A model generated the notes under the pieces. It worked only from the letters and a program-made list of their open reading frames with translations. It was not told where the DNA came from and did no database searches. A DNA stretch of 48,693 nucleotides. It comes from Sphingomonadales bacterium (GTDB lineage: Bacteria; Pseudomonadota; Alphaproteobacteria; Sphingomonadales; Sphingomonadaceae). Where the stretch lies: positions 1-48,693 of the forward strand of contig JAFKLT010000067.1 of the NCBI GenBank assembly GCA_017309275.1, written 5' to 3'. Below, in pieces: positions 30,097 to 30,248 of this stretch. Each line of letters starts with the position of its first letter. Position 1 is the first letter of the stretch. The translations under genes and the position numbers were made by a program.

Positions 30097-30248
30097 GAGT
30101 CCGGCAGAGTCCGCCGTCAACCCCGGGATTCTAGGGATTCCGGGTGTCAGAATGGTTAACGCGACGAGAACGAAAGGAGTCTGCCACGACATATGGAGTC
30201 TGCCGCGAATCGAAGACTCAACCACTGGTGGTGTGGCGATTGGGACTC
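30097..30248. promoter_or_regulatory. Cluster of nine GANTC sites upstream of ccrM
   Basis: GANTC sites occur at 30097, 30107, 30127, 30136, 30177, 30196, 30207, 30215 and 30244 (first base of each). Chance alone would give about 0.5-0.6 in 152 bp at this composition. Two of the sites lie in a repeated decamer, GGAGTCTGCC, at 30176-30185 and 30195-30204. The cluster fills the gap between ccrM and the SDR gene, including the likely ccrM promoter and leader. Methylation-dependent control of ccrM is the most likely role, as known in Caulobacter, where only a couple of sites are involved. Confidence 0.8.

Follow-up and report, generated by a model that had tools for sequence, protein, structure and literature searches.

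The locus described here raises the question of why the DNA directly upstream of ccrM, the gene for the GANTC adenine methyltransferase, should contain so many copies of the target of its own product. In the window, i.e. the complete stretch of 48,693 nucleotides that was analysed, a first-pass annotation had placed nine GANTC within 152 bp upstream of this gene, and each of them was recovered at its place between positions 30097 and 30248 (Table 1). The gene is a genuine ccrM, the product showing both an N6_N4_Mtase (Pfam, 1.5e-68) and a RAMA domain (2.7e-18), and it is the only full-length copy in the genome, the remaining matches being short and weak. In another genome of the same genus (G033) ccrM is split across two contigs, C39 and C65, probably by an assembly break. 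The annotation had further described the upstream gene as a divergent-side neighbour, which had to be corrected since it encodes a short-chain dehydrogenase on the same strand as ccrM; there is therefore no divergent gap, and a divergent promoter is ruled out. Beyond what had been noted before, the region was found to contain a conserved -35 core, a CtrA half-site and tandem NrdR-like boxes.

Table 1. Features of the ccrM upstream region in the window (site positions counted from the first T of TTGAC)
Feature	Coordinates	Strand	Remark
ccrM, GANTC adenine methyltransferase	28919..30058	-	ATG at 30058, start codon verified
GANTC site 1 (GACTC)	30097..30101	-	+19
GANTC site 2 (GACTC)	30107..30111	-	+9, promoter spacer
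-35-like TTGAC, putative ccrM promoter	30116..30120	-	-10 uncertain, perhaps about 30092-30097
GANTC site 3 (GAATC)	30127..30131	-	-11
GANTC site 4 (GAATC)	30136..30140	-	-20
CtrA half-site TTAACC	30154..30159	-	in the gap separating the two GANTC blocks
GANTC site 5 (GACTC)	30177..30181	-	-61
NrdR-like box ACTCCATATGTCGTGG	30184..30199	-	first bases inside GANTC site 6
GANTC site 6 (GACTC)	30196..30200	-	-80
GANTC site 7 (GATTC)	30207..30211	-	-91, between both NrdR-like boxes
GANTC site 8 (GAGTC)	30215..30219	-	-99
NrdR-like box CCACCAGTGGTTGAGT	30216..30231	-	last bases inside GANTC site 8
GANTC site 9 (GAGTC)	30244..30248	-	-128
Short-chain dehydrogenase gene	30268..31164	-	upstream, co-directional with ccrM; delimits the region

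Elsewhere in the window the motif is depleted, as 73 GANTC were counted in total against 244 expected from dinucleotide shuffles. When a sample of the same genome was analysed, consisting of 40 stretches with 623,539 bp of the 5.1-Mb assembly and with genes predicted by a simple script, the density was 1.45 GANTC per kb, or 2.0 per kb outside the predicted genes, so that about 0.2-0.3 sites are expected per 152 bp; the Poisson chance of finding at least nine is 3e-12 to 5e-11. No 152-bp segment of the sample contains more than five, and among the 250-bp regions upstream of 436 predicted genes one harbours five sites and three harbour four. Nine sites are far outside anything in the sampled part of the genome. 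Every form of GANTC is under-represented in this sample (L222-L261), GAGTC and GACTC with 243 occurrences against about 672 expected from the trinucleotides. A cluster at L252 (about 8175-8345), with four GANTC in 250 bp including two at a distance of 9 bp, is situated upstream of an open frame on the minus strand (7532-8134) that encodes a 200-aa protein without Pfam match.

GANTC was then counted upstream of ccrM in relatives, a check that the first-pass annotation had proposed, using 38 promoters from Sphingopyxis (34 of them distinct, some strains being represented twice) and 72 named promoters from other sphingomonads, comprising the best 80 loci of one search, 29 of the 57 genomes matched in a second, and the window itself. 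The cluster is kept, and poor conservation in close relatives, which the annotation had named as refuting its interpretation, was not observed: all 38 Sphingopyxis promoters and 71 of the 72 others contain at least three sites in 250 bp, with means of 8.55 and 5.86 compared with 1.73 and 1.15 expected under a first-order model. In Sphingopyxis the sites usually lie at about -189, -160, -152, -141, -122, -81, -72, -52 and -42 upstream of ccrM and their spacing is kept. The form of the sites is also distinct, GAGTC or GACTC making up 78.5% of the promoter sites in Sphingopyxis and 82.8% in the other sphingomonads, compared with 15% and 27% in the remainder of the loci, where GAATC or GATTC dominate. 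At locus L078 five GANTC in exact 15-bp steps were noted 4347-4407 bp downstream of the ccrM start, perhaps a coding repeat.

The survey was extended to the class, where 289 genomes were screened and 206 had CcrM at the threshold used. Promoters from 89 of these (three belonging to other genera of the same family) together with 20 from other families of the same order gave a set of 109, with a mean of 3.72 GANTC per 250 bp against 1.02 expected; at least three sites were found in 80 promoters and none in 11. For 29 class loci with longer flanks the promoter contains 3.90 GANTC per 250 bp and the remaining locus 0.35. The cluster is consequently not peculiar to this genome but common to most of the class promoters examined, and the array of the window is among the most elaborate forms of a usual feature, higher counts in 250 bp being ten sites in four loci of the sphingomonad survey and eleven in one class locus. 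The suggestion of a strongly amplified methylation switch fits a cluster conserved to this extent, whereas the amplification is not special to this genome. We regard the cluster as biologically meaningful.

When analysing the promoter itself, TTGAC was identified within the last 140 bp in 38/38 Sphingopyxis promoters (6.3 expected) and in 72/72 promoters of other sphingomonads (11.0 expected). Of the 106 promoters from outside the sphingomonads, 53 contain the core TTGAC-N0-4-GANTC (0.36 expected), and in 36 of the 106 a second GANTC follows 3-8 bp beyond it (0.01 expected). In the window two sites, at +9 and +19 from TTGAC, lie between the -35 and the -10 region, the second perhaps touching the uncertain -10; a scan with the sigma-70 consensus revealed no full promoter and no recognisable -10. 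In Caulobacter, promoters with GANTC between -10 and -35 are described as a temporal class with a distinct activation time (PMC4287350), and promoters whose spacer contains methylation sites are already an established type. The sequence TTAACC is present on either strand in 36/38 Sphingopyxis promoters (2.3 expected) and in 36/72 promoters of other sphingomonads (3.2 expected). The full CtrA site TTAA-N7-TTAA was found in none of these 38 and 72 promoters and in 7 of 106 in the class (0.6 expected). Perfect DnaA boxes (TGTGGATAA or its complement) occur in 34/72 promoters of other sphingomonads, e.g. L054 and L083, often directly after the last GACTC; with 0/38 in Sphingopyxis and only 4/106 in the class, DnaA is ruled out as a general reader of the array.

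With TTGAC, present in 112 of the 113 promoters used, as anchor, the modal site positions in sphingomonads are -128, -99, -91, -80, -61, -20, -11, +9 and +19, and the nine sites of the window coincide exactly with these. Among the 112 anchored promoters +19 is occupied in 90, +9 in 47 and +8 in 30. Placed on a grid of 9.85 bp, the nine modal positions deviate by an rms of 0.72 bp compared with 1.73 for random positions, and only 0.2% of 5,000 random sets fit as well. Additional sites restricted to some of the genera number 64, or 52 after merging and cutting at -145, and these 52 are likewise in phase (mean cosine 0.32 versus -0.12, a value reached by none of 10,000 random sets); both statistics lose some force through common descent and because the modal positions were chosen post hoc. 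Across the class promoters such periodicity is weak, with a cosine of 0.087 at period 10, within the range of 300 null sets, and about 3 sd at period 10.5. For the sphingomonads, sites near whole helical turns would bring the methyl groups to much the same side of the double helix.

Methylation sites in helical phase recall the GATC clusters at oriC and dnaA of E. coli, which are bound by SeqA and where, as here, multiple methylation sites lie at a replication-linked gene (PMC10073500); methylase and motif differ, the likeness is drawn without claiming homology and the reader at ccrM would be hypothetical. A similar protein that needs several hemimethylated GANTC on the same face could hold the newly replicated promoter, as the ladder of about 10 bp would allow. 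The second densest cluster in the genome sample lies at an apparent chromosomal origin upstream of hemE (uroporphyrinogen decarboxylase; L256, positions 3300-3610 on contig C50), which also agrees with such sequestration, but this cluster has only five sites. We know of no protein in the Alphaproteobacteria that sequesters hemimethylated GANTC, which argues against this explanation, and we consider it very doubtful. The apparent origin also contains several DnaA-box-like sequences, an AT-rich stretch and an element, GAGTCAATATGTTGG, that resembles the ccrM half-site.

As the sphingomonad sites are in helical phase, a binding array for a methylation-sensing regulator, another suggestion of the first-pass annotation, is plausible, but GcrA, the obvious candidate, does not explain the distribution of the array. 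Together with sigma-70, GcrA, which is encoded in this genome, would read methylated GANTC and activate ccrM, the many sites then serving as docking points; the one or two sites behind the -35 agree with this, as does the shared activation time of the Caulobacter promoters with such sites, while sites 100 bp upstream are at odds with binding in the spacer. Among the 89 class genomes with ccrM, a Pfam search gave no GcrA match in 18, with the reservation that four of these are less than 90% complete and that a divergent GcrA could be missed, and when the GcrA of this genome was used as query the best match in the 18 reached only E 0.067 (G080). Site density was 3.44 in these 18 genomes and 3.37 in the 71 with a match (one of them weak), and the TTGAC-GANTC core is kept in 5 of the 18. 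As the density is equal with and without detected GcrA, the array seems not to exist for GcrA alone, and GcrA as its sole cause is not supported; the docking explanation appears rather unlikely to us.

An array that is equally dense where no GcrA was detected could instead be read by CcrM, which is certain to be present wherever the array was counted because the loci were found through it. A CcrM dimer, reported to bend and open DNA (PMC6787082), would bind the phased array on hemimethylated DNA and repress its own promoter, or the array would titrate the enzyme, i.e. act as the sink for methylase binding that had been suggested earlier. However, CcrM reportedly detaches after methylating one site (PMC10073500), a stable occupancy being hypothetical, and titration neither needs nor explains the phasing or the fixed place relative to the -35. 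On balance CcrM as reader of its own array is unlikely. Methylation may also act directly on RNA polymerase, as a further mode of reading. The gcrA promoter region of Agrobacterium tumefaciens, with six GANTC, is described as having a lower activity in the methylated state, also in E. coli (PMC11514494), so that an alphaproteobacterial reader is not required for an effect of this kind.

The sites could, finally, merely ride inside the binding sites of other proteins or inside an RNA hairpin, methylation playing no role, and individual sites do have conserved flanks of their own. Against this, the flanks common to the sites carry little information and yet GANTC is kept: no longer motif common to all sites was found, the symmetrised flanks having an information content per position of no more than about 0.3 bit in Sphingopyxis and about 0.1 bit outside this genus. 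Lineage-specific sites, moreover, arise in phase. The first-pass annotation had pointed to a repeated decamer, GGAGTCTGCC, and its two copies are indeed present 19 bp apart (30176 and 30195), but the decamer is not conserved in the Sphingopyxis alignment, where mainly its GANTC is kept, and it is ruled out as a functional unit. In sphingomonads two palindromic elements, GACTCAAnATnTnGTGG and its mirror, have the sites near -99 and -80 as their inner edges, and the GANTC pair of this dyad is 19-20 bp apart in 75 of 76 dyads. Its arms show no covariation within promoters, scoring 6.92 against 6.87 for shuffled partners in 39 non-Sphingopyxis promoters, which favours a DNA operator over an RNA hairpin; with no Rfam match within 29900-30500 and no terminator-like site found at the upstream dyad, a hairpin or terminator is ruled out there. 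Of the explanations weighed here, sites that only ride along are the least probable. With a profile of the half-site the arms in the window score 20.3 and 19.1, and nothing else in the 624-kb sample exceeds 12.9.

NrdR is an ATP/dATP-sensing repressor. Its gene is present in this genome (TIGR00244, 5.6e-52, exceeding the cut-off), and the upstream half of the ccrM region resembles a pair of NrdR boxes both in shape and in centre spacing (32-33 bp), the centres of ACTCCATATGTCGTGG and CCACCAGTGGTTGAGT being 32 bp apart in the window. Such a pair, as judged from sequence, is clear in other sphingomonads and weak in Sphingopyxis. NrdR binding is reported to be best when two boxes are separated by an integral number of helical turns (PMC12051234), and when the regular expression published there was applied as a strict pattern, a pair at NrdR spacing was found in 23 of 72 promoters of other sphingomonads compared with 0.6% expected and with 2 of 435 upstream regions of the own genome; at other spacings the other sphingomonads gave none at 14-18 bp and 10% at 25-28 bp. 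None of the 38 Sphingopyxis promoters, the window included, contains the strict pair, and in the class it is present in 4 of 109 (0.8% expected). Allowing one mismatch, 55/74 of the other sphingomonads have a pair at NrdR spacing versus 22/74 at 25-28 bp and 1/74 at 14-17 bp. The corresponding relaxed count in Sphingopyxis (11 of 12 positions) is 11/38 at NrdR spacing and 11/38 at the off-phase 25-28 bp, and with equal scores in and off phase the helical argument for NrdR fails in this genus, while it holds in the other sphingomonads.

Scoring was also performed with a general NrdR consensus on 73 promoters (the 72 other sphingomonads and the window). At 31-33 bp 72 of these reach at least 26, compared with 4.9% in simulations, although 37/73 reach 26 also off phase, at 26-28 bp; the means are 31.7 in phase and 25.6 off phase, and the window scores 30 at 32 bp. 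For comparison, ribonucleotide reductase promoters of the same family (28 loci, leaving out L267, L268 and L295) have a mean of 30.0 compared with 23.4 simulated and 25.6 off phase, and 26 of the 28 reach at least 26 versus 15% simulated; a pair matching at 11 of 12 positions is present in only 9 of 31 such loci. The nrdA gene of the own genome has an NrdR-like pair with centres 32 bp apart, which like the ccrM pair of the window fails the strict pattern, in this case by one position. In the 624-kb sample together with the window and the nrdA locus four pairs at NrdR spacing reach at least 29, namely those of nrdA and ccrM, a third located within a predicted gene and a fourth ahead of an open frame resembling a TonB receptor, while off-phase spacings gave four and three.

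A score of 30 at 31-33 bp is attained by 42 of the 106 class promoters, compared with 10 off phase and 0.6% in simulations, but in 20 loci of the same order many of the pairs apparently lie inside the end of rnhB. When sphingomonads and these 20 loci were removed, 27 of the remaining 86 promoters, some of which may keep part of the rnhB confounder, reach 30 at 31-33 bp, while 11, 9, 5 and 13 do so at 21-23, 26-28, 36-38 and 41-43 bp. In class loci such as L186, L209 and L218 a near-perfect NrdR-like palindrome, CACAAGATnTTGTG, overlaps the apparent 3' end of rnhB upstream of ccrM.

Compared with the NrdR operator of ribonucleotide reductase promoters, the ccrM region has a similar candidate pair of palindromic boxes with centres about three turns apart, but the target is a DNA methylase, the inner box ends are GANTC and Sphingopyxis ccrM has one degenerate box (30216..30231 in the window) and no spacing preference. 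Since the Sphingopyxis scores are weak, the NrdR site of the window is a prediction carried by its relatives and not by its own score, and the site may be decaying in this genus. The anaerobic repression of ccrM reported for Sphingopyxis granuli (PMC6472365) has no simple reading under the NrdR model. More broadly, ccrM could belong to the dNTP-sensing NrdR regulon in much of the Alphaproteobacteria, an operator built of GANTC half-sites reading both nucleotide supply and methylation and so tying chromosome re-methylation to the completion of DNA synthesis; we put this forward tentatively, as a possibility that is more doubtful than likely. No link between NrdR and ccrM was found in the literature searched, including the accessible parts of PMC5343134 and PMC12186491, a coverage that is limited and in which older and subscription work is under-represented.

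The reading that we prefer, and that the arrangement of the sites makes somewhat probable, is that the ccrM promoter works as a methylation-gated autoregulatory feedback switch, possibly combined with a dNTP-sensing input through NrdR. The region would then be the ccrM promoter, with two GANTC located within the spacer or at its edge, behind the conserved -35, and the remaining sites further upstream at nearly whole turns, exposing their methyl groups on roughly the same face. With all sites fully methylated the promoter would be weak; passage of the replication fork would leave them hemimethylated and open a window of transcription, which newly made CcrM would close by re-methylating its own promoter. 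The large number of sites would sharpen this switch and make it depend on re-methylation being complete. The upstream half of the region probably serves sphingomonads as a tandem NrdR-type operator as well, with GANTC as inner edges, and we propose that dNTP supply and methylation state could in this way be read at one place, the CtrA half-site lying between both GANTC blocks. Repression by full methylation, the binding of NrdR and CtrA, and the timing are what we infer; DNA-binding proteins are reported to be able to shield GANTC from CcrM (PMC5172544).

The closest known system is the ccrM promoter of Caulobacter crescentus, where the same gene has GANTC in its promoter and is reportedly transcribed only from the hemimethylated chromosome (PMC2217572). 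It differs in having, as reported, two sites (PMC10073500) compared with nine here, and in being activated by CtrA, whereas only a CtrA half-site and no TTAA-N7-TTAA is present here; tandem NrdR-like boxes are not mentioned for it in the parts of these sources that were covered. The gcrA promoter of Agrobacterium tumefaciens is alike in its dense cluster (six GANTC in 250 bp) at a cell-cycle gene and in its lower activity when methylated, but the gene is a different one, and in the sections of PMC11514494 covered neither phasing nor order-wide conservation is reported. GANTC in promoters of cell-cycle genes has been counted across the class by Brilli et al. 2010 (PMC2877005), where methylation control is held not to be derivable from counts, and PMC8116508 counts sites upstream of ctrA, with no ccrM count met in the part covered; a word search for "ccrM promoter" gave no occurrence in PMC3973325, PMC7987155, PMC3667746 or PMC5172544. 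Promoters regulated by methylation are already known, and what seems new is the elaborated version at ccrM.

For bacteria other than Caulobacter there is, to our knowledge, little explanation of what restricts CcrM to a part of the cell cycle. An array of CcrM's own sites in its own promoter, widespread in the class and phased in sphingomonads, suggests a concrete feedback device that can be tested. If real, the NrdR-like operator would in addition link DNA methylation to dNTP pools, and would offer an alternative reading of the phenotype of an nrdR deletion in Caulobacter, for which the authors invoke raised dNTPs acting on the swarmer phase (PMC12186491).
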